Part shown: in pieces, positions 21,528 through 38,101 of the stretch
Layout of the letters: each line of letters opens with the position of its first letter
Position numbering within the stretch: the stretch's first letter is position 1
Assembly: GCF_900086705.1 (NCBI RefSeq)
Contig: NZ_LT575483.1
Coordinates: 3,743,459 to 3,807,458 of the forward strand
Source of the DNA: Massilibacillus massiliensis
Lineage (GTDB): Bacteria; Bacillota; Negativicutes; FLKF01
DNA: 64,000 nucleotides
Direction of reading: 5' to 3'
The notes under the pieces: generated by a model
Databases searched by the model: none
Told to the model about the DNA's origin: nothing
The model's input: only the letters and a program-made list of their open reading frames with translations
Position numbers and translations under genes: made by a program

Positions 21528-22895
21528 TTGAAAATTGAAATACCAGTGATTAGAGGGCAAAAATACGTTGTGGACATCGTTAGCATGGGGCATAGTTGTG
21601 AGGGTGTTGGTAAATATAAAGATTTTACGGTGTTTATTCCTTTTGCGTTAGTCGGGGAACAAGTAGAAGTTGTGATCACGGAAGTAAAGAAAAGTTATGC
21701 AAAAGGAAAAATGCTGAATATAGTAAAAGCGAGTCCGGATCGTGTAGAACCAAAATGTGAGATTTACCATCAATGTGGTGGTTGCCAAATCCAGCATTTA
21801 AATTATGAAGCTCAATTGAAAGTAAAACATCAACAAGTTGTTGATGCAATAGAGCGCATTGGCAAGCAGGAAAACGTTGTGATTCATCCAACCCTTGGTG
21901 CAGAAAATCCTTGGAATTATCGTAATAAGATGCAGTTCCCGATTGCCAGAAAAGAGAATGATGTCATAATTGGTTGTTACGCACAAGGAACACATGCGAT
22001 TATCGATACAAAAAATTGCTTGATTCAAAACGAAGCCAACAATACCATTGCCAATGCAGTTCGTGGTGTGGTGAAAAGATTAAATATCAGTACGTACGAT
22101 GAAAAAACCGGCCGCGGTGTCCTGCGTCATGTCATTGGCCGTGTTGGTACCAATGGCGAAGTTATGGTCGTTTTAGTGACTAGCACGGACGTTTTACCTA
22201 AACAAGAGAAAATCATCGCTGAATTACGTAACAATATCCCAGGACTCGTTAGTATCATGCAAAATATCAACATGAAGAATACAAACATAATCATGGGGAA
22301 AAGAACCTTAAAACTTTGGGGTGAACTAACGATCACGGATAAATTGGGCGACTTTACGTTTAACATATCCGCACGTTCTTTCTTCCAAGTCAATACGAAA
22401 CAAGCTGAAGTCCTTTATAACAAAGCTGTAGAATATGCACAGCTCACGGGCAAAGAAACCGTAATCGACACCTATTGTGGGACAGGTACGATTACCCTAT
22501 TCTTAGCAAAGAAAGCGAAAAAAGTATACGGTATCGAAATCATCGAAGCCGCAATTAAAGATGCCAATAAAAATGCTGAAAATAACAATGTAACCAACAC
22601 CGAGTTCCTCGTAGGCGATGCAACCGATGTGATGCCCGAGCTATACAAACTAGGCATTCACCCCGACGTCATCGTCGTAGACCCACCCCGCGCCGGCTGT
22701 GACAAAGCCGTCCTAGAAAACTTCGCCCACATGACCCCAAGACGCATCGTCTACGTATCCTGCAACCCAGCATCACTGGCAAGAGATATCGCGATATTGG
22801 CGGAATTTGGGTATGTTGCGAAAGAGATACAACCAGTTGATATGTTCAGTGAGACAAGTCATGTGGAGTGTGTGGCGTTGTTGGAGAAGAAGTAG
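21528..22895 (+). CDS. rlmD: 23S rRNA (uracil-5-)-methyltransferase, RlmD/RumA family
   Basis: SAM-dependent RNA m5U methyltransferase of 455 residues. Order: TRAM RNA-binding domain (about 1-60), iron-sulfur cysteines CEIYHQCGGC plus a later Cys in TKNCLIQNE, a central domain, then the methyltransferase fold with [25 protein letters not shown] and the catalytic Cys in [13 protein letters not shown]. The TTG start at 21528 follows GGAGAGG. Bacillota relatives modify U747 and/or U1939 (RlmCD), so the exact site is not certain. The last 440 coding bases and about 170 bases beyond are duplicated at 28227-28848. Confidence 0.93.
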   Translation: MKIEIPVIRGQKYVVDIVSMGHSCEGVGKYKDFTVFIPFALVGEQVEVVITEVKKSYAKGKMLNIVKASPDRVEPKCEIYHQCGGCQIQHLNYEAQLKVKHQQVVDAIERIGKQENVVIHPTLGAENPWNYRNKMQFPIARKENDVIIGCYAQGTHAIIDTKNCLIQNEANNTIANAVRGVVKRLNISTYDEKTGRGVLRHVIGRVGTNGEVMVVLVTSTDVLPKQEKIIAELRNNIPGLVSIMQNINMKNTNIIMGKRTLKLWGELTITDKLGDFTFNISARSFFQVNTKQAEVLYNKAVEYAQLTGKETVIDTYCGTGTITLFLAKKAKKVYGIEIIEAAIKDANKNAENNNVTNTEFLVGDATDVMPELYKLGIHPDVIVVDPPRAGCDKAVLENFAHMTPRRIVYVSCNPASLARDIAILAEFGYVAKEIQPVDMFSETSHVECVALLEKK

Positions 22896-23068
22896 GAAAT
22901 GTAGTAATAATTTCATAGAAGTAAGTGAAGAAATCGCCTAGAGATATGTTTCTAGGCGAATTTTTTATTTTAAATAGTATGCTTCTAAGAAAAATATAGG
23001 ACTTTTGAAGGAGTTTTTGTCTTTGTATGGAAAATTATAGATTAAGATATATTTTGTTTAGTATAAAA
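22453..23068 (+). repeat. direct repeat: rlmD 3' end and downstream, copy 1
   Basis: This segment is repeated in the same orientation at about 28227-28848. Coding parts differ mostly at third positions, and the similarity runs past the stop codon through the terminator to about 23068, where it stops abruptly next to the REP-like motif at 23072. Everything between the copies is accessory DNA. Confidence 0.9.
22931..22966 (+). terminator. intrinsic terminator of rlmD
   Basis: AATCGCCTAGA and TTTCTAGGCGAATT form the stem, followed by TTTTTT. Related hairpins lie at 28705-28741, in the duplicate, and at 55578-55612, behind the methyltransferase gene. Confidence 0.85.
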
Positions 23069-23218: not shown

Positions 23219-24937
23219 ATGGCATATGAGAAGAAAAATATAAGAGCTGTAATCGAAGAAATAAATAGTCGCAAGATTTATCTTCCGGCAATACAAAGAA
23301 AATATGTATGGGATGATGATCAAATAACACGGTTAATGGATTCTATCATGCTTGGCTATCCGATAGGAACCTTTCTTTTCTGGAAGGTTAGAAAGTCAAT
23401 CATTAATAAAAAAGAGTATTCAATGTACGAGTTTATAAAGGATTTTCATGAAAGAGATGTCTATAAAAATCCATCTGCTCCACAGCCATTTCCTATTGGA
23501 AGTAATGAGGAACCAATATGGGCTGTTCTTGATGGTCAGCAGAGATTAACCTCGCTATATATAGCTTTGCAAGGTAGTATGAGTAGGAAGTTACCAAACA
23601 AACGTTGGAAAAATGATGATGCATTCCCTATAAAAGAATTGTATTTAGACCTACATAGTCAGAGAACTGATGAAGAAGATATTTCTTACGAGTTTAAATT
23701 TCTGACACGAGAAGAAGCTAAAAAGCAAAAAGATGATAAGCTATGGTATTTGGTTAAAGATATATTAAAGTATTCTCAGGATGAGCTTGTAACAGATTTA
23801 ATTATTCCAAACGGCTGGGCTTCGGATAAAGTTGCAATGAAAAATATATCTTTATTGCATACCAGACTTGTTGGTGACGAAATAATTAACTATTTTGAAG
23901 TTCAAACAGACTCTATCGACAGTGTACTCGATATATTCGTTCGTGTTAATTCTGGTGGTACAGTTTTATCGAAGAGTGATTTGTTGTTCTCTACCATTGT
24001 TTCGCATTGGGACAAAGCTAGAGATGAAATAGATAAACTACTTGCAGAAATTAATAAGATTGGTGAAGGGTATAAGTTTTCCAATGATTTTATTATGCGT
24101 ACATGCCTATATGTCCTTGATATGTCCGTTACTCTTAAAGTTGAGACATTCAAGAAGGAAAGCGTATTGAAGATAAAAATCAATTGGGAAAACATTCGTA
24201 AAGCTATTAAGGACACAGTAGATTTACTTAATGAATTTGGATTTAATTCAGAAAATATTATATCCTATGTGGCTATATCGCCAATGGTTTATTATCGTTT
24301 TAAAAGTGGAAATTTTGATGATGAAAGTAAGTCTGAGTTAAGAAAGTATATAGTTATATCGCAGGTAAGACAGGTGTTTGGTGCTGCTACAAACTCAGCC
24401 CTTACAAGTATACGAGAAGCTTTGAAAGCAGCTCCAAAAGATTCGTTTAAGATGGGTAATTTGCTAAATGTACGCTTTACCGGTGAAAGAACATTGCGCT
24501 ATACCTCTGAAGAAATAGATGCAATGTTTGATACATATGAAATTGGTGCATATACGTTTATGTTATTATCCTTACTTTATCCAAATTTAAAATACAGCCA
24601 GAAAGGGTTTCATCAAGATCACATGCATCCATATGCTGGTTTTGAAGAAAGTAAGATTGCAAGCCTTAAGCTTCCTGATGGCTCAGTTATTGATGATGTT
24701 AGAAAAGATGAATGGAGGCGCAGAAGAAATACATTGGCGAATCTACAATTATTAGAAGGGCGCGAGAATGAGAGGAAAAATGCGACACCTTTAGTAGATT
24801 GGATTAAGGTTATAGCTAATAGTGAGAATGCTAAATATATGCCGAGTGATTCTTCTTTTGAACTATCTCACTTTGAAGATTTTATAGATAAGCGACAAAA
24901 ATTAATGAGCGATGCATTTAAAGCAATATTGCTTTAA
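23219..24937 (+). CDS. DUF262/DUF1524 protein, GmrSD/BrxU-like (probable type IV restriction)
   Basis: Predicted 572-residue cytosolic nuclease. The N-terminal ParB-like DUF262 domain has the family start IYLPAIQRKYVWDDDQITRLMDSI and the NTPase motif LDGQQRLTSL (about residues 105-115). In the C terminus, DHMHPY (about 468) and RRNTLANLQLLEGREN (about 503-520) match the His/Asn pattern of the HNH-like DUF1524 nuclease domain. Proteins joining both domains (GmrSD, BrxU) cut modified phage DNA using NTP. No modification enzyme is next to it, consistent with type IV restriction. ATG follows GGAGAG. It lies inside the island bounded by the rlmD duplication. Target specificity is unknown. Confidence 0.8.
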   Translation: MAYEKKNIRAVIEEINSRKIYLPAIQRKYVWDDDQITRLMDSIMLGYPIGTFLFWKVRKSIINKKEYSMYEFIKDFHERDVYKNPSAPQPFPIGSNEEPIWAVLDGQQRLTSLYIALQGSMSRKLPNKRWKNDDAFPIKELYLDLHSQRTDEEDISYEFKFLTREEAKKQKDDKLWYLVKDILKYSQDELVTDLIIPNGWASDKVAMKNISLLHTRLVGDEIINYFEVQTDSIDSVLDIFVRVNSGGTVLSKSDLLFSTIVSHWDKARDEIDKLLAEINKIGEGYKFSNDFIMRTCLYVLDMSVTLKVETFKKESVLKIKINWENIRKAIKDTVDLLNEFGFNSENIISYVAISPMVYYRFKSGNFDDESKSELRKYIVISQVRQVFGAATNSALTSIREALKAAPKDSFKMGNLLNVRFTGERTLRYTSEEIDAMFDTYEIGAYTFMLLSLLYPNLKYSQKGFHQDHMHPYAGFEESKIASLKLPDGSVIDDVRKDEWRRRRNTLANLQLLEGRENERKNATPLVDWIKVIANSENAKYMPSDSSFELSHFEDFIDKRQKLMSDAFKAILL

Positions 24938-28226: not shown

Positions 28227-28670
28227 AAAGAAACCGTAATCGACACCTATTGTGGGACAGGTATGATTACCCTATTCTTAGCAAAGAAAGCGAAAAAAGT
28301 ATACGGTATCGAAATCATCGAAGCCGCAATTAAAGATGCCAATAAAAATGCCGAAAACAATAATGTAACCAACACCGAGTTCCTCGTAGGCGATGCAACC
28401 GACGTAATGCCCGAACTATATAAACTAGGCATTCACCCCGATGTCATCGTCGTAGACCCACCCCGCGCCGGCTGTGACAAAGCCGTCTTAGAAAACTTCG
28501 CCCACATGACCCCAAGACACATCGTCTACGTATCCTGCAACCCAGCATCACTGGCAAGAGATATCGCGATATTAGCGGAATTTGGATATGTAGCTAAAGA
28601 GATACAGCCAGTCGATATGTTTAGTGAGACAAGTCATATTGAGTGTGTGGCGTTGTTAGAAAAGAAATAG
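28227..28670 (+). pseudogene. duplicated 3' fragment of rlmD
   Basis: Encodes the last 147 or so residues of RlmD (from [12 protein letters not shown] to the stop), with the SAM motif, [11 protein letters not shown] and SCNPASL retained, but without the TRAM and iron-sulfur parts and without a start or ribosome site. The frame is still open, and differences from 22453-22895 are mostly silent. It is either recently derived or the original gene end displaced by the island. Confidence 0.85.
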
Positions 28671-28848
28671 GAAAAGTAGTAATAATTTCATAGAAGTAAG
28701 TTAAGAATTCGCCTATAGATATATTTCTAGGCGGATTTTTTGTTTTAGCTAATATCCTTTTAAGGAAAATATAGGACTTTTAAAGGAATTTCTGTCTTTG
28801 TATGGAATTTTATAGGTGGATTATACTTTTTTAATATAAAAAATTTAT
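28227..28848 (+). repeat. direct repeat: rlmD 3' end and downstream, copy 2
   Basis: Second copy of the 22453-23068 segment, including a degenerate terminator (28705-28741) and the GGACTTTT...TCTTTGTATGGAA stretch. The non-coding part has diverged more than the coding part. Confidence 0.88.
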
Positions 28849-29408: not shown

Positions 29409-32400
29409 ATGGCTAATTATGATTCTTTAAAACTAATAAGAGTGCTTAGTGATAGAGGAGAAACAAATTCAAGAGTAGATTTAATGCAGGAAGAAAATGC
29501 AGAAAATTATTTCGTGAGGAAGACAATATTTGGTATAGATCAACCGCTATATCAAGCTATATTTACAAGAGAAGTTCAAGCTTTATATAAATTGAATAAT
29601 TGTTCCAAGATTGTAAAAATACTCTCACATAAAAATATGAAAGTAAGGACTACAAATGAAAGGGTAGGATGTATATTTTTAGAACGTATTTTTGGTGAAA
29701 CTTTATTTAAAACAAATTTAATAAAGTTATCTTCTAAAGATAAGTTTAATATTCTTAATCAGCTTTTGACTGCTATTGAAGTAGCTCATTCAAATGGAAT
29801 AATTCATAGGGATATCAATCCTAATAATATTATGATAACGGATCAAAAAGAAGTTAAGGTAATCGATTTTGGAATATGTAAGATTAAAGAAATGGTAAGT
29901 TGTTCGACAGTTTATAAAATGGGCACAAATCTATATTCAGCTCCAGAAGTTCATTTACATAGTGAAAATGCTACAGAAAAAAGCGACTTATACTCAATTG
30001 GTGCTGTCGCGTATTATTTATTTACTGGAAATGAGCCTCCACTTGCAAGTGATTTTCAAAATGTGTTAGATAAAACATCTGGAATTGATATCGATTTAAA
30101 GTCTGTTCTTAAAAAAATAGTTTTTGAAAATCCAGAAGAACGGTATAAAGATATTTTTGATTTAAAAAGTGACCTTTCAAATTTATTTAGCAGATTTTTA
30201 GATATAAATCAACAGATTAATATTACAATGGATTCTGAAAAATTTAGTTATTTGAAAAAGCAGAATTTGCTCCCGCAACGTGCTAGATTTACAGACACGG
30301 AGTATATCAGTCAAAATTTTACTGAACTTTATGCATTTAAAAACAATAATGATATATACCAATTTTTAGGGTTAAACTATTTAATGGAATGTATTTATAA
30401 TGCCGATTTAAATGCATTTAATGTATGCGCTTTTAGAAAGCTTGTCCCAATTCAAAGAGAAAGCAAAAAAAATAAATTTGCAGAAATTACAGCGAAAGTT
30501 CAAGTTGTTGATCCGAAATGGATTCATCGTCAAAGTAGAAATAACAACATTGAAGTGAAAAATATTATCGACGACTATTATGATGAATATATGTCGAAGA
30601 ATAATGTTGACTCTGAATATAGATCAAAATATGGTGCATGGAGAGAACTTCTTGATTTAACAAAAAAAAGTATAGAAAAAAACATAATAAGATTTTCGTA
30701 TGAATCGGTTATTTCGAAGGACGGGATATTAACATTTTCATTGAGTAAAAGTGTATTTTTAGGAGACGAACCATTAACTAAAGAACATTTATTTGTATAT
30801 GAAAAACCTTCTAGAGGAAAAAAGAAAGTTAGCCTGCAGGTTATTGGTCATTATGAAGATGATTATTTTGATCGAGATCACGTAGTACTTAAAATACGCT
30901 TTGATAAAAAGCAACCGCGGCTGCCCTATAAAGGTTCCATATGTTTAGATTACAGGAAGGATATGGCAAATGTACAACGGCAAATGGATGCCCTTGATAC
31001 GATTGAAAAAGAAGATTATTCGTGTCCATTTAATCTAAAAAGGATTATTTCTGGTGTGGAAAATCCAGGTGTTAAAATTCTTGAAGATAATTTTAAATTT
31101 TTCAATGATAGATTGGATATGTCTCAGCGGGCTTCTGTAAAGAAAGTCTTAAATTCAGAATCGCTTTCGCTTATTCAAGGACCTCCTGGAACTGGTAAAA
31201 CTAATGTTATTATTGAAATTATTCGACAGATATTACATGAAAATGATAGAAATCCGGAGCTTCCAGAGAAAAAAATATTATTAGTATCACAATCACATCC
31301 TGCTGTTGATAAAATGCTCGATGATTTAATAGAACAATCTAATACACGCCCCAACCTTATAAGAATTGGACGAGATGAAAAATTAAATGAAGATATTCGA
31401 GAAGAGTATGGAATAAACTATGTGAAAGAAAAATGGATAAATAATGTTAGAAAAAAGTGTATAGAAGTTTCTGCTGATATATGCAATAATTTGCAGATTA
31501 GTGAAGAAGAATTCGATGCGTATTATGCGGAATACGAGAAAATGCAGATTGTAGATTTTGAAAGTGAAAAAATTGATAAAGAGATTATTACCAACCTGAA
31601 AAGTAAGACTCAAACAATAACAAAAGAAAAGTTAAGACAAACTTTAGAAATACAGCGACAATGGATGGAACAATTACCTCAATGTGAAGAAGTGGATTTA
31701 TATATTATAAAAACCACAACTATTATTGCTGGAACCTGTACAGGGTTTATATCGAATAGAGTTATAAAAAATGCGGAATTTGATTATCTGATTATTGATG
31801 AAGCTGCTAAAGCCACGTTCCCTGAGCTAGCAGTATCTTTTAATAAAGCAGATAAAATTATTATGGTTGGAGATCACAAACAACTTCCGCCTGTTTTAGA
31901 TACTGATATTATTAATAAAAATAAAGATGTCCTTGACATACAAACTTTATCAATGGGAATGTTTGAAAGGCTGTATGAAATATTTCCGGAAGAAAATAAA
32001 CATAGATTAACCGTACAGTATCGAATGCATCCAATTATTGGTGCTTTAATTAGTAAAATTTTTTATGATAATGATATTCAAAATGGTGTGGAAAGAGAAA
32101 AAAGGTTAACGGGTATTCCTGAATATTCTGATATTGCGATTGAGTGGTTAAGTACATCTACTAGGCCATCGAAAGAAAAATTTGAAAAAAGACAAGGGGT
32201 TGAACCGAGGCAGACTTATCGAAATGATTTAGAAGTAATGATAATAAAAGAAAAATTGGCTTATTTGGACAGATCACTAAATAAAACTGCTAAAGTAGCT
32301 GTAATTACTGCGTATAGTGCACAAAAGTATGCATTAGCTAATATGATCAAGCAGCAAAGGTACCAAAACTTACATATTGAAGTCGATACAGTAGATGCTT

Positions 32401-32642
32401 TTCAAGGGAGCCAAAAAGAAATTATTATTTATTCAACTGTAAGAAGTAGCGAAAATCCATATAAAATTGGTTTTCTTAAATCAGAAGCAAGGCTTAATGT
32501 AGCATTTTCTAGGGCCCAATCGTTGCTCATTATAGTTGGTGATCATAAGTTTCTAAATAATAGTAAAATTTCTCAAAATAAATTTCCGGAAATTATTAAT
32601 TATATTATGGAAAATGACTCATGTAGAATCTCAGAAATTTAG
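29409..32642 (+). CDS. Ser/Thr protein kinase - SF1 (Upf1-like) helicase fusion, Mokosh MkoA-like
   Basis: A 1077-residue defence-type protein. Residues about 1-265 are an eukaryote-like kinase: catalytic loop HRDINPNN, DFG in VIDFGICK, APE in YSAPEV, SDLYSIG; the Gly-rich loop is degenerate, but a VRK lysine is present. A region of about 260 residues without recognised motifs follows. The C-terminal half is a COG1112/Upf1-type SF1 helicase: Walker [47 protein letters not shown] and RLNVAFSRA. Kinase plus this helicase, followed by one partner gene, is the make-up of type I Mokosh antiphage systems. The partner gene begins 11 bases after the stop. Base composition is strikingly AT-rich. Confidence 0.85.
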   Translation: MANYDSLKLIRVLSDRGETNSRVDLMQEENAENYFVRKTIFGIDQPLYQAIFTREVQALYKLNNCSKIVKILSHKNMKVRTTNERVGCIFLERIFGETLFKTNLIKLSSKDKFNILNQLLTAIEVAHSNGIIHRDINPNNIMITDQKEVKVIDFGICKIKEMVSCSTVYKMGTNLYSAPEVHLHSENATEKSDLYSIGAVAYYLFTGNEPPLASDFQNVLDKTSGIDIDLKSVLKKIVFENPEERYKDIFDLKSDLSNLFSRFLDINQQINITMDSEKFSYLKKQNLLPQRARFTDTEYISQNFTELYAFKNNNDIYQFLGLNYLMECIYNADLNAFNVCAFRKLVPIQRESKKNKFAEITAKVQVVDPKWIHRQSRNNNIEVKNIIDDYYDEYMSKNNVDSEYRSKYGAWRELLDLTKKSIEKNIIRFSYESVISKDGILTFSLSKSVFLGDEPLTKEHLFVYEKPSRGKKKVSLQVIGHYEDDYFDRDHVVLKIRFDKKQPRLPYKGSICLDYRKDMANVQRQMDALDTIEKEDYSCPFNLKRIISGVENPGVKILEDNFKFFNDRLDMSQRASVKKVLNSESLSLIQGPPGTGKTNVIIEIIRQILHENDRNPELPEKKILLVSQSHPAVDKMLDDLIEQSNTRPNLIRIGRDEKLNEDIREEYGINYVKEKWINNVRKKCIEVSADICNNLQISEEEFDAYYAEYEKMQIVDFESEKIDKEIITNLKSKTQTITKEKLRQTLEIQRQWMEQLPQCEEVDLYIIKTTTIIAGTCTGFISNRVIKNAEFDYLIIDEAAKATFPELAVSFNKADKIIMVGDHKQLPPVLDTDIINKNKDVLDIQTLSMGMFERLYEIFPEENKHRLTVQYRMHPIIGALISKIFYDNDIQNGVEREKRLTGIPEYSDIAIEWLSTSTRPSKEKFEKRQGVEPRQTYRNDLEVMIIKEKLAYLDRSLNKTAKVAVITAYSAQKYALANMIKQQRYQNLHIEVDTVDAFQGSQKEIIIYSTVRSSENPYKIGFLKSEARLNVAFSRAQSLLIIVGDHKFLNNSKISQNKFPEIINYIMENDSCRISEI

Positions 32643-32653
32643 GGGGTGTGGCT

Positions 32654-34036
32654 GTGGAGAAAATATTAAATACAATTAAGAGTCAAATACCTAAGGAAGT
32701 TAATGGTTTTTTTTGCATCAAAACACAAGAAATTTTAATTCCCCATATGGAAATTGGAATAGAATGTTTAATTCATGATATTTCGGAACTAAACCTATTT
32801 TTTGAAACAATTCTTAAGTTAGTTGAAATAGAAGTGAAAGAAATAAGTTCGATTGCTCGTATTCTTGGTGTTTCTTTTGATACGGTAAAGGAAGCTGTTG
32901 TGGATATGGTTTCAGGAGACTATATTAGTGTATCTGCAAATATTTTAGGAATCACCAAAAAAGGAAAAGAAGTATTAAAATCTAAAAAATTAATCGAAAT
33001 AAAAAGGAAAAATTTAAACAAAGTAATGGTGAATCTGATTACAGGAGAGATTAGTGATGGTAGCAATGTTAAAACAGCAAGTGCTGGAAAATCATCGGTA
33101 TGTTTAGCAGAAGAGATTGCTGTTAATAAATCATTTTTAGATACGAATTATTCTTCTATTAATCAAGTGTATCAAGTACAGCAAGAAAACGACAGCGCGT
33201 ATGGAAGAAAGGGAATTACGAAAGAGCTGTATAAAATAGTAGATATTTCATATCGGAAGTTAGTATATCTTGCAAATGAAGTAGTTCTTTATAAAAGTGA
33301 TGATTCAGTGGAGCTTCAAATTCAATTTACGACAGATGCTAATGATACATACTCAAACTGTTTATATAGGCAACTCAAAGGTGAAATTCATCCATGTTTA
33401 GAAAATTTCTTTGAAAAAAGCCGAGATTTTGTAAAGAAACTATCAGCTTATCCGAGTCAGTTAGATCAAGCACTTAATGATGTGGCGAAAAAGGTAAAGG
33501 CCGAGTTGTATGATAAAGCTAATGTAGCCGACGTTGATCTTAGTTTATTTGGGAATAGACGTTACGCATTGGTTGATAAAGAGTATATTGATTATTTCAC
33601 TCATAGTGATGAATTTAGATTTGATCGTTTGTTTATTTATACTAATAGAATAAATAGCATGTTAAATCCTGAAGTTTTTAGTGAAATAGAAAGAATTTCG
33701 GAAAAGAAAAAAGTAGTCATCTTATATGATAAAAAAGAATTTCATGCAATGGAAACTATAAAACACTTTTTGGGTAAAAAACCAAATAAGAATCTATTCA
33801 TTATTCCAAGTGATAGTGTTGATAAAACTATCATATGCTTTGATCAAGCTTTAATAATAGAGGTAAAAGAAGAAATTGTTTATATGTTTGAAAAGCCGAT
33901 ATGCTATAAAGTTCCTATTGTTGATTTTGATAAAAGTAAATTAAAACCTTGGGTAGAGGAAATTCAAGAAGAGTATGATCTTAAGAAAATATTGCAGCCC
34001 ACAAACAATATAAACAATCATCAAAAAAAGTTCTAG
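32654..34036 (+). CDS. partner of the kinase-helicase; possible divergent PLD-like protein
   Basis: A 460-residue protein of unknown function. The start GTG at 32654 is 7 bases after AGGGGG; GTG 32648 is too close to it. The middle of the first third (ISSIARILGVSFDTVKEAV...GDYISV, about 65-100) looks like a winged helix. The C-terminal third alternates strands and helices (FDRLFIYTNRI, KKVVILYDKKEF, NLFIIPSD) like half of a phospholipase D fold, the fold of MkoB. However, at the place of HxKxxxxD it reads VDKTIICFD, and no HxK occurs anywhere, so classical PLD catalysis is not supported. Tight coupling to the helicase gene argues for one system. Function is inference from position. Confidence 0.55.
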   Translation: MEKILNTIKSQIPKEVNGFFCIKTQEILIPHMEIGIECLIHDISELNLFFETILKLVEIEVKEISSIARILGVSFDTVKEAVVDMVSGDYISVSANILGITKKGKEVLKSKKLIEIKRKNLNKVMVNLITGEISDGSNVKTASAGKSSVCLAEEIAVNKSFLDTNYSSINQVYQVQQENDSAYGRKGITKELYKIVDISYRKLVYLANEVVLYKSDDSVELQIQFTTDANDTYSNCLYRQLKGEIHPCLENFFEKSRDFVKKLSAYPSQLDQALNDVAKKVKAELYDKANVADVDLSLFGNRRYALVDKEYIDYFTHSDEFRFDRLFIYTNRINSMLNPEVFSEIERISEKKKVVILYDKKEFHAMETIKHFLGKKPNKNLFIIPSDSVDKTIICFDQALIIEVKEEIVYMFEKPICYKVPIVDFDKSKLKPWVEEIQEEYDLKKILQPTNNINNHQKKF

Positions 34037-34163: not shown

Positions 34164-36188
34164 ATGCAAATTACGAAGCTCAAGGTGTCTAATTTTCGGT
34201 CCTTTGGAGAAGAAGAAACCATTATTCCTTTGAAAGATATGTCTATCCTTATTGGCAATAATAGCGCAGGAAAGACCACAGCTATGCAGGCACTAATAAA
34301 ACTTTTTGGTGTATATGCAAAAGACCGCGAACTCGTGCGTGCCGATTTTCATGTTCCGCCTGGAGTCAATCCGGAAGATCTTACTGAGGCTGCACTTTAT
34401 CTTGAAGCAGTAATAGAATTTGCTGAATTGCAAAATACAGCTGGATCAGGAATGGGATGCATTCCTCAATTATTTCATCAAATGGTTGTTAACGGACAAG
34501 GACAAGCCCCATATGTTAGGATCAGGCTTTCGGCAACTTGGCAGCGAGGCAACACGCCTGACGGTGATATTGATCCTAAACTTGAATTCATTACGGTTGC
34601 TGAAGGTGAGACTATTACTGATGAGAATAGAATACCGGTCAAACCTCATCAGCGCTCGCTAATCCAAGCCTTTTATGTTCCTGCCATGCGTGATCCGCGA
34701 ACTCAGTTAAAACATGACTCAGGCACAATTTTATATCGTTTTTTTAAGGCAGTAAAATGGACTTCTGATCTTACCGATACACTAAAAGCAAAAAGTGAAG
34801 AAGTCAATGGACTCTTTACCAGTCAGCCTGGGGTTCAAACTGTCGAAAATTTAATAAAAGCTCAGTGGAAAGAGTTTCACGATGATATCAAATACTCGGA
34901 TGCAGGGCTTGGTTTCTCGGCAACGGAGTTAGAAAAAGTATTAAAGAGGGTTGAAGTTTACTTTCGGCCTACTCCTGAGGAAAAAAGCTATACAATTGAT
35001 CAATTGGGTGATGGTCTACGTTCCTTGTTTTATATTGCGCTAGTTTCAGCTTTGTTGAAATTAGAAGCTGATTATACAAGTATGACAGCCGAATCAGGGA
35101 TTGAAATTGACTGTACCTCCATACCTGTATTAACGATCATGGCTCTTGAAGAGCCGGAAAACCATTTGGCCCCTCATCTTCTTGGCCGGGTGATTGGCTT
35201 GCTAAAAAATGTTTCCAGCCAGTCTAATGCACAAGTGATCATATCGTCACATACGCCTGCAGTGTTACAACGCGTGGAACCTGAAAATATTCTCTATTTC
35301 CGAATGTTGAATCCGCAAATGCGAACTTGTGTTAAAACCATCACACTCCCTCCAGCTATATCAGAAGCGTTCAAATATATTAAAGAGGCAGTCAAAGCGT
35401 ATCCGGAGTTGTATTTCGCGAAGCTTGTAATTTTAGGCGAAGGAGATAGTGAAGAATTAATTCTGGCAAAGACTCTTGAAGTTATGAACACTCCTATCGA
35501 CCGAAGTTTTATTTCAATAGTACCGTTAGGGGGACGGCATGTTAACCATTTCTGGCGTCTTTTAAGTCAGCTTAACATTCCGCATCTCACAATTCTTGAC
35601 CTGGATAGGGAAAGAGATGGAGGTGGATGGGGCCGGATTAAGTATGCGATAAAGCAACTCAATGAAGTTGGTGTTCCCATAACAGAGTTGACTAATACTG
35701 AATTTGAAGATGGGAGTACAATTGCTTTTACGAATGAAGACTTAGAAGGAATGCATTTATGGCCATTGGACCCAGAACGTTTAGAATTAATGGATAAGTT
35801 TGTAAAATGGTTACGGAAATATGGGGTATTTTTCTCAACGCCCTTGGATATTGATTTTATGATGCTTTCAACATTTCCGACAATCTATCAGAGTGCTACG
35901 GAAGGGACCGGTCCTAGAATTCCTAACAGGACAGAACCGGCATTTTTAGAGAAAATAAACACGGCGATAAAGGCAACTTTGAAGAATGAAAAATGTACTG
36001 GTTATACATACAGTGCGGAAGATAAGGAACTGTTTATTTGGTATAATTACTTGTTCCTTGGTCGTGGGAAGCCAGTAACTCATTTGCTTGCGTTAAAAGA
36101 AATAGAGGACTGGTCGCTAGAATGCAATCTGCCTGAACCTATTACGGCATTAATGAATACTGTCGTCAATAAACTTGGGAGGCGTTAA
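34164..36188 (+). CDS. gajA: Gabija GajA: OLD-family ATPase with TOPRIM nuclease domain
   Basis: A 674-residue OLD-family endonuclease. The N-terminal ABC-type ATPase has LKVSNFRSFGEEE, Walker A GNNSAGKTT (about 31-39), the signature region GDGLRSL, Walker B MALEEPENHL and the SSHTP switch. The TOPRIM domain has LVILGEGDSEE (about 427-437) and LDLDRE (about 477), which supply the metal-binding acids. GajA nicks phage DNA when nucleotide pools drop. GajB follows with a 2-base gap. The length exceeds the best-known GajA (about 580) because of a longer C terminus. ATG follows GAGGTG. Base composition is clearly less AT-rich than in the two genes upstream. Confidence 0.88.
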   Translation: MQITKLKVSNFRSFGEEETIIPLKDMSILIGNNSAGKTTAMQALIKLFGVYAKDRELVRADFHVPPGVNPEDLTEAALYLEAVIEFAELQNTAGSGMGCIPQLFHQMVVNGQGQAPYVRIRLSATWQRGNTPDGDIDPKLEFITVAEGETITDENRIPVKPHQRSLIQAFYVPAMRDPRTQLKHDSGTILYRFFKAVKWTSDLTDTLKAKSEEVNGLFTSQPGVQTVENLIKAQWKEFHDDIKYSDAGLGFSATELEKVLKRVEVYFRPTPEEKSYTIDQLGDGLRSLFYIALVSALLKLEADYTSMTAESGIEIDCTSIPVLTIMALEEPENHLAPHLLGRVIGLLKNVSSQSNAQVIISSHTPAVLQRVEPENILYFRMLNPQMRTCVKTITLPPAISEAFKYIKEAVKAYPELYFAKLVILGEGDSEELILAKTLEVMNTPIDRSFISIVPLGGRHVNHFWRLLSQLNIPHLTILDLDRERDGGGWGRIKYAIKQLNEVGVPITELTNTEFEDGSTIAFTNEDLEGMHLWPLDPERLELMDKFVKWLRKYGVFFSTPLDIDFMMLSTFPTIYQSATEGTGPRIPNRTEPAFLEKINTAIKATLKNEKCTGYTYSAEDKELFIWYNYLFLGRGKPVTHLLALKEIEDWSLECNLPEPITALMNTVVNKLGRR

Positions 36189-36190
36189 AA

Positions 36191-38101
36191 ATGTCAACGC
36201 CAATAAGTCCCGAAAGCTGGATTCCATCCGATGGTATTATTCTTGAGCCGAATGCGGAGGCCGCTGTTCGTAGTAATTTTAATGCGGTAGTGGTTGCTGG
36301 CCCGGGGGCCGGGAAGACGGAACTGCTTGCCCAACGAGCTTGTTTTTTACTTCAGACGAATACCTGCAAACCACCAAAACGAATTCTGGCAATCAGTTTT
36401 AAAAAAGATGCGGCCACTAATTTGGCAGAGCGGGTTGAAAAGCGCTGCGGTAAGGCGCTGGCACAGCGTTTCGATTCCTATACCTTTGACGCTTTTGCAA
36501 AGTCATTACTTGATAAGTTTTTAAATGCACTGCCAATAGACTATAAACCTTCAAGAAATTACGAGATCATTTTTCCAACCAGAGATCAGATGCAAGAAGC
36601 AATTCACGAGCTCGTTTTACCGCCTACTTGGTCTGGTCGTAATATCTATGAAATACAAGCTCAAAGGGTATTAAATAATATTTGCGTTAGAAAGCTGCCG
36701 TTGAATAATAACACTACTTTAGAGCAGTGGGCTATAAGGGAAATATGGCAAAAGTGGCTGCGTAGTCCTGATTCCTCACGGTTAACTTTCCCAATGATCA
36801 GCCGTTTAGCTGAGTATCTGCTAACGCAAAATCCTTTGCTTGTTAAGGCATTGCAAATGACGTATAGCCATGTATTTTTGGACGAATTTCAGGATACTAC
36901 ATACATTCAATATGACTTATTAAAAACTGCCTTCCATAATTCACAGGCGGTTTTTACGGCTGTTGGTGATACCAAACAAAGAATTATGGGGTGGGCGGGA
37001 GCCTTACCTAATGTATTCTCAACGTACTGTAATGACTTTCAAGCTCAAAGGTTAGACTTAATAAAAAATCATCGATCTGCACCTGTGCTAGTGAATATTC
37101 AAGCAGCACTTTTTCAACATCTTGACCCTGAAGCAGTTCCAGCCGTAGCGGCTGAGGGGTGGGAAGCAAATGATGGGATATGTGAAATTTATTTGTTTGA
37201 TAGTCATATACAGGAAGCAGAGGTGCTAGCCAGGCAGATTTATGAATGGATATCTCTTGATCATGTAGACCCAAGAAAAATAGTGATTTTAGCAAAGCAA
37301 CAGGTCGATGTTTATGCAAGAGAAGTAATTAATCAATTAAGTCTTGTCGGTCAAAAATCCCGGGTAGAGTCTGATATGCAAGACTTGTTAGCAGAACCTT
37401 TGATCCAGATCATTTTGCAGTTTTTAAGACTGGTGACCACGGAACGCATGCCCGCAGACTGGCAGGCGACTGTTGATTTATTATTAGAACTTCGTGGTTG
37501 CCAACATGAGGAAAAGACAGGAAAAAGTATAGAGATTGAGATACAGTTGGCTGCTTTTCTTCAGACACTTAGGGATGAACTCGGCAATATTACAATGGAA
37601 ACCTGTTCTTCCGCAGTGATACGGTATATATTAAGTCTGATTGTCAGTTTCATGGGTGAGAGTGCTATTAAGAGCCAATTTCCACAATATAAAAGAGATC
37701 GCTGGTACGAAAACCTACTTAATAAGGCTTCTGTAATTCTCTCTGATGGTTACCGTGTTTCATGTGAATGGGCGCAGACAATAGACAATTTCGTTGGGAA
37801 AAATACTATTCCAATTATGACAATCCATAAAAGCAAAGGTCTTGAATACGATATAGTCGTATTTATTGGCCTGGAAGATGGCGCTTTCTGGAGTTTTCGT
37901 ACGCAAACCCATGAAGATACATGTGCATTTTTTGTTGCTTTATCTAGGGCTAAGAAGAAAGTTTATTTCACGTTTTGTGATCGCAGGCAGACGCGGCGAG
38001 GAAATACTCAACAAGAGCATCAAAGCATTGGAACGCTGTATGATCTGTTAACGAGTGCTGGTGTAGAAGTAGTTGAATATAGAGGGGATAGTCAGGTATG
38101 A
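36191..38101 (+). CDS. gajB: Gabija GajB: UvrD-like helicase
   Basis: A 636-residue SF1A helicase-like protein. Motifs: VAGPGAGKTELLAQRA (Walker A), ISFKKDAATNLAERV, YTFDAFAKSLL, FLDEFQDTT (Walker B), VGDTKQRIMGWAGA, KNHRSAP, MTIHKSKGLEYDIVVFIGLED, and a final FFVALSRAKKKVYF. It partners GajA, whose gene ends 2 bases upstream and contains its ribosome site (GGGAGGCG), so translation is coupled. In known Gabija, GajB senses DNA ends or products of GajA and hydrolyses nucleotides. This copy is longer than the roughly 500-residue reference protein. An alternative is an orphan OLD-UvrD pair, but order, spacing and domains fit Gabija. Confidence 0.87.
   Translation: MSTPISPESWIPSDGIILEPNAEAAVRSNFNAVVVAGPGAGKTELLAQRACFLLQTNTCKPPKRILAISFKKDAATNLAERVEKRCGKALAQRFDSYTFDAFAKSLLDKFLNALPIDYKPSRNYEIIFPTRDQMQEAIHELVLPPTWSGRNIYEIQAQRVLNNICVRKLPLNNNTTLEQWAIREIWQKWLRSPDSSRLTFPMISRLAEYLLTQNPLLVKALQMTYSHVFLDEFQDTTYIQYDLLKTAFHNSQAVFTAVGDTKQRIMGWAGALPNVFSTYCNDFQAQRLDLIKNHRSAPVLVNIQAALFQHLDPEAVPAVAAEGWEANDGICEIYLFDSHIQEAEVLARQIYEWISLDHVDPRKIVILAKQQVDVYAREVINQLSLVGQKSRVESDMQDLLAEPLIQIILQFLRLVTTERMPADWQATVDLLLELRGCQHEEKTGKSIEIEIQLAAFLQTLRDELGNITMETCSSAVIRYILSLIVSFMGESAIKSQFPQYKRDRWYENLLNKASVILSDGYRVSCEWAQTIDNFVGKNTIPIMTIHKSKGLEYDIVVFIGLEDGAFWSFRTQTHEDTCAFFVALSRAKKKVYFTFCDRRQTRRGNTQQEHQSIGTLYDLLTSAGVEVVEYRGDSQV

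Follow-up and report, generated by a model that had tools for sequence, protein, structure and literature searches.

The window analysed here, a stretch of 64,000 nucleotides of the Massilibacillus massiliensis genome, carries a kinase-helicase gene followed at once by the gene of a partner protein in which the HKD site of PLD nucleases is missing. Canonical Mokosh is described as a helicase plus a PLD nuclease (PMC11672841), and the locus raises the question of whether such a pair is still Mokosh and, if so, which of its activities would confer immunity. Both open reading frames announced by the initial annotation are present and intact:

29409..32642, + strand: MkoA-like kinase-helicase, 1077 aa (PADLOC MkoA; Pfam Pkinase and AAA_11/AAA_12)
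32648..34036, + strand: MkoB-like partner, 462 aa (GTG 32648) or 460 aa (GTG 32654) (PADLOC MkoB; hhalign)

The tight coupling claimed for them is borne out by the 5 bp that separate the MkoA stop from the first MkoB GTG at 32648. The second GTG, at 32654, is better spaced from the AGGGGG and is more plausibly the start, giving the 460 residues already attributed to the partner.

Both proteins match PADLOC models of Mokosh type I, as the label Mokosh-like had implied: MkoA matches PDLC03921 (E 6.5e-190) and PDLC03920 (E 1.3e-168), and MkoB matches PDLC03923 (E 6.2e-32), the latter match stopping at residue 377, short of where the HKD would lie. With the family defined from secondary sources (PMC10952713, PMC11672841) and PADLOC, the M. 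massiliensis pair is, by homology, Mokosh type I and not the canonical PLD-nuclease form. Gene order, the kinase-COG1112 helicase, the wHTH and PLD-fold partner, the HMM matches and the defence island are those of type I, whereas MkoB has no intact HxK…D site, MkoA is about 100 aa shorter than the same-class HKD-associated proteins of loci L039 and L040, and the kinase loop in this clade reads HRDxNP instead of HRDxKP. Unlike Mokosh type II (MkoC), in which helicase and PLD share one polypeptide, the locus has two separate ORFs. To speak of a new subtype, as first proposed, is too strong, as PDLC03923 already includes such sequences. The novelty lies in a loss of the HKD that is clade-wide, selected and recurrent; a search of freely accessible papers found no discussion of Mokosh together with HKD, PP2C, NERD or pseudokinase.

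The partner, noted to have a winged-helix-like N-terminal part, had been read either as a degenerate PLD protein or as a different effector. Pfam finds no PLD domain in MkoB, and the MkoB profile retrieved no significant match from PDB sequences. Its fold was examined on an AlphaFold2 model built from an alignment of 11 homologues (mean pLDDT 86.4), which delimits the following elements:

32783..32989, + strand: MkoB winged-helix domain, residues 46-114 (VIA Z 11-12.7 to MarR/CggR/SSo2273)
33542..33982, + strand: catalytically degenerate PLD-fold domain, residues 299-445 (Foldseek and VIA on the predicted model)
33818..33844, + strand: VDKTIICFD at the position of the lost HKD, residues 391-399 (alignments)

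The winged helix holds up, with a MarR/CggR-like fold at Z of about 12 and weak HTH_45 and wHTH matches by sequence. As judged from the predicted model, the C-terminal domain belongs to the PLD fold superfamily: the Foldseek matches of top rank (E 1e-4 to 9e-4) include FAM83B (1.2e-4), PLD6 (1.7e-4), NucT (3.3e-4) and FAM83A, and VIA returns NucT (Z 11.9, rmsd 3.0 over 129 residues) and FAM83A/B (about 11; FAM83A 11.0). Zucchini/PLD6 and NucT share this fold with MkoB but retain the HKD that the M. massiliensis protein lacks. Over its full length, MkoB aligns with HKD-bearing MkoBs at 99.2% in hhalign (E 3.2e-19, 413 columns). Of the two readings, the degenerate PLD partner is the one that survives, as the predicted fold, the homology to HKD-bearing MkoB and the disappearance of the HKD residues agree, and the different effector is set aside by the same fold and homology.

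What has been lost is an entire active site. In ten HKD-bearing MkoBs (Nostoc, Pseudanabaena, Allocoleopsis, Oscillatoria, Arthrobacter, Streptomyces, Mycobacterium gallinarum, Aliarcobacter, and those of genomes G029 and G411), the invariant residues in Nostoc numbering are H419, K421, D426, T433-N436, S351-W353, R449 and E451. VDKTIICFD aligns with their HKD, as had been proposed; aligners disagree on whether V391 or D392 faces the histidine, and HxKxxxxD appears in no register. The claim that no HxK occurs anywhere holds near every catalytic position and fails only in the disordered tail, where HQK is found at 458-460. In the clade described below, the conservation of HxK, D, TSFN, SPW and R-x-E-x-G is lost together, P32, E53, G74, G105 and the core pattern are still conserved, the only invariant charged residues are E53, E82, E256 and E312, with no invariant H/K/D set, and a basic C-terminal tail is present in most, not all, of the proteins.

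This state is not peculiar to M. massiliensis. A scan of the genome collection with the MkoA C-terminus of Massilibacillus and Anaerospora, followed by ORF analysis, recovered ten further distinct loci in Clostridia and Negativicutes, including Ruminococcus, Lachnospiraceae, Oscillospiraceae, Desulfosporosinus and Anaerospora. In all 11 loci the genes are adjacent (MkoA 1075-1110 aa; MkoB 446-525 aa), and in none does alignment reveal a complete HKD (0/11), so the pair is conserved without it in other genomes; the outcomes that would have spoken against the initial reading, namely a fold without PLD features, a lack of co-occurrence with kinase-helicases or a complete HKD, were found in no case. 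No third gene conserved across the clade loci was found. A tree of 27 rows, built on the helicase part of MkoA, groups the 11 proteins in one clade with 100/100 support that is HKD-minus throughout. For the pseudo-PLD domain, dN was 0.32-0.40 against a dS of 1.3-3.2 in four pairs, values that make dN/dS rough as dS is near saturation, and the dead domain evidently is under purifying selection and not drifting. Identity to the L041 proteins is 53% for MkoB and 69% for MkoA, MkoB being the faster to diverge.

Searches beyond the clade returned little. MkoB had no match in plasmids (tblastn) or viral contigs, nor had the MkoA C-terminus in viral contigs. Beyond M. massiliensis, a phylum-wide scan with PDLC03923 gave only short N-terminal stretches, largely winged-helix, which were judged to be chance matches and left out of the count, and a scan of Pseudomonadota with query A7 gave few matches, mostly partial. 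A distant relative in genome G510 (L038, 4594-8387) has an MkoA broken by IS21-like genes and an open MkoB frame.

Across Mokosh as a whole, the HKD-minus state takes four changes on the best MkoA tree, at least three of them on well-supported branches, and the HKD of MkoB disappeared on three or four occasions at least; sampling for this count is modest and partly plasmid-based, and the root is not fixed, so the direction of change on the NERD branch is root-dependent. First, Acinetobacter and Vibrio plasmids (L121, L122) encode an MkoA of about 1670 aa with a degenerate kinase, together with an MkoB that lacks the HKD and, like that of M. massiliensis, falls in PADLOC family PDLC03923. The NERD assignment of this type rests on an EFD…ELKDW sequence region and on a review that includes NERD for Mokosh type I (PMC10952713). 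Unlike this type, whose NERD-like region is N-terminal, the M. massiliensis MkoA retains HRD and DFG, has no Pfam match to NERD, and begins its kinase near residue 21. Second, four Hyphomicrobiales plasmid loci (L123, L125, L140, L141) combine a kinase-helicase and an HKD-less MkoB, as in M. massiliensis, with a third gene, a PP2C phosphatase, that M. massiliensis does not have; HKD was lost separately there on the tree, and three of the four MkoAs carry an HRDLNP loop. Finally, Mycobacterium marinum MkoB has Val for the His of HxK and Asn for the Ser of TSFN, whereas its sister M. gallinarum (L143) keeps the HKD intact; this loss looks recent. The M. marinum MkoB with VxK for HxK (L142, 4610-6463) is annotated as an S1-domain protein. 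A Nostoc BREX locus with pglX and pglZ (L147, 801-7549) has a COG1112-type helicase followed by DarT-like and ADP-ribosylglycohydrolase genes.

With the PLD site gone, the kinase-helicase deserves closer attention. Its fusion of a kinase to an Upf1/COG1112 SF1 helicase, noted from the start, is confirmed by Pfam domains, PADLOC MkoA and PDB relatives alike:

29469..30212, + strand: Ser/Thr protein kinase domain, residues 21-268 (Pfam PF00069, motif table, homologue conservation)
30192..31112, + strand: kinase-RecA1 interval, residues 262-568, partly Upf1/Ighmbp2-type 1B beta-barrel and stalk
31113..32546, + strand: SF1 Upf1-like helicase core (AAA_11/AAA_12, PDB relatives)

Pkinase PF00069 is matched at 4.9e-29 (residues 21-268) and AAA_11/AAA_12 at 3e-46/2e-46 (residues 569-1046). 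SMUBP2, UPF1 and SEN1 are the top PDB relatives of the helicase (E 1e-57 to 1e-49), and the SF1 motifs are intact and invariant among clade homologues. A nuclease hidden in the kinase-helicase linker was considered and rejected: the predicted structure of the region (AF2 pLDDT 85.5) gave in Foldseek and VIA only 1B-barrel and stalk matches, with rows to eIF5B, Upf1, Ighmbp2, Sen1 and SETX, weak RelE rows (E about 0.2) being disregarded.

The kinase has K38, E55, HRD (133-135), N140, DFG (153-155) and APE (178-180), and K38, E55, HRD, N140, D153, G155 and the PE of APE are conserved or nearly so across the 11 MkoAs, with the F of DFG replaced by Y once. These motifs uphold the description of an apparently active enzyme, with one reservation: in the catalytic loop, HRDINPNN, Asn occupies a position that is Lys in most Ser/Thr kinases. 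The loop reads HRD[IL]NPxN in all 11 clade MkoAs, as against HxD[IL]KPxN in the MkoAs of the ten HKD-bearing systems. Since the Asn loop has only two origins on the MkoA tree, its association with HKD loss is suggestive only. From its motifs, activity of the clade kinase is probable without being certain, and the Asn in place of the loop Lys could leave it weak or redirect it.

Since MkoB lacks a nuclease site, no nuclease fold was recognised in the linker and no third gene is conserved, the enzymes left are the helicase and the kinase. Most likely, MkoB does not cut nucleic acid but binds it, serving the kinase-helicase as an adaptor or regulator. That the pair is, more fully, a Mokosh type I variant whose MkoB has turned into a pseudo-PLD adaptor, with the output passing through the kinase, has in our judgement about an even chance. 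MkoB, with its winged helix, PLD-fold domain and often basic tail, would bind nucleic acid and hold or gate the kinase-helicase; the Upf1-type helicase would detect or remodel phage-derived RNA or DNA; and its output would drive the kinase to phosphorylate host or phage proteins and stop the infection, without the nuclease step that the PLD protein performs in canonical Mokosh. The PP2C third gene of the related HKD-less lineage, by analogy, points to phosphorylation as the regulated step, and in the KKP phage-defence module toxic phosphorylation is restrained by a PP2C phosphatase (PMC11341870). The FAM83A/B matches, pseudo-PLDs with a kinase-anchoring role taken up below, likewise favour this reading. 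Against a nuclease-free output, cutting might be done by a nuclease provided in trans.

Tentatively, and with well below an even chance of being right, HKD loss may be a repeated effector swap, the clade pseudo-PLD docking and gating the Ser/Thr kinase and immunity arising by phosphorylation, in parallel with FAM83 and CK1. Human FAM83/DUF1669 proteins have a PLD fold without the catalytic His, are functionally linked to a Ser/Thr kinase, and are pseudo-PLDs that directly anchor CK1 kinases (PMC6008594). However, the family is vertebrate-only and the likeness is one of fold alone, with no common origin shown beyond the PLD fold: identity to MkoB is 13-19% and TM about 0.2 (query-normalised), and the active enzymes NucT and PLD6 score about equally.

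Among the alternatives to the adaptor reading, the one that survives best, although we consider it unlikely, makes MkoB a nucleic-acid-binding platform and the helicase the effector, unwinding or displacing phage RNA/DNA complexes while the kinase merely tunes it. The winged helix and PLD-fold scaffold of MkoB, the basic tails of most relatives, the invariant SF1 motifs and the Lys to Asn change in the kinase loop all fit such a scheme, whereas the retention of K38, E55, HRD, N140 and DFG in nearly all 11 proteins would be needless for a mere scaffold, and the related lineage carries a PP2C phosphatase. It is quite improbable that MkoB is instead the substrate of the kinase, its phosphorylation being a switch that frees the helicase or another partner; the constancy of the gene pair and the faster divergence of MkoB favour this idea, but by sequence it is inseparable from the adaptor model. 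Equally doubtful is a complex with nuclease activity left, whether from an active site that escaped recognition or from a nuclease that it recruits in trans: canonical Mokosh includes a nuclease (PMC11672841) and the NERD type suggests that another one is usable, yet MkoB lacks an invariant H/K/D set, no nuclease fold was recognised in the linker, and no third gene is conserved. A decaying remnant, to which the transposases in the island and the broken MkoA of L038 might point, is very improbable given two intact frames, an HKD loss common to 11 diverse pairs and purifying selection.

The recurrent, selected loss of the PLD site suggests that the usual model, in which a helicase has a PLD nuclease as its effector, is not the whole Mokosh story. 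The lineages allow a clean comparison of kinase, helicase or nuclease as the carrier of immunity in each. For annotation, a PADLOC match to MkoB does not imply a nuclease.

The neighbours of the Mokosh pair are themselves defence genes, which we counted for the adaptor model. A GmrSD/HEC-05 gene with two transposases lies on one side and a Gabija pair on the other:

23219-24937: GmrSD_N/DUF262 protein, lone candidate defence gene (top PADLOC match HEC-05, E 4e-194)
34164-38101: complete Gabija pair, directly after the Mokosh pair (PADLOC GajA E 1.7e-247, GajB E 3.3e-234)

Because the GC content of the Mokosh pair is about 30%, against 40% for Gabija and 38-42% for the flanking housekeeping genes, the pair looks separately acquired. 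A segment of 617 bp is duplicated at 92% identity (22452-23068 and 28227-28841), the copies lying about 5.8 kb apart with the GmrSD/HEC-05 gene and the two transposases between them. It corresponds to the 3' end of a 23S rRNA (uracil-5) methyltransferase-like gene (21528-22895), an arrangement such as would result if a mobile element had integrated into that gene at its 3' end.
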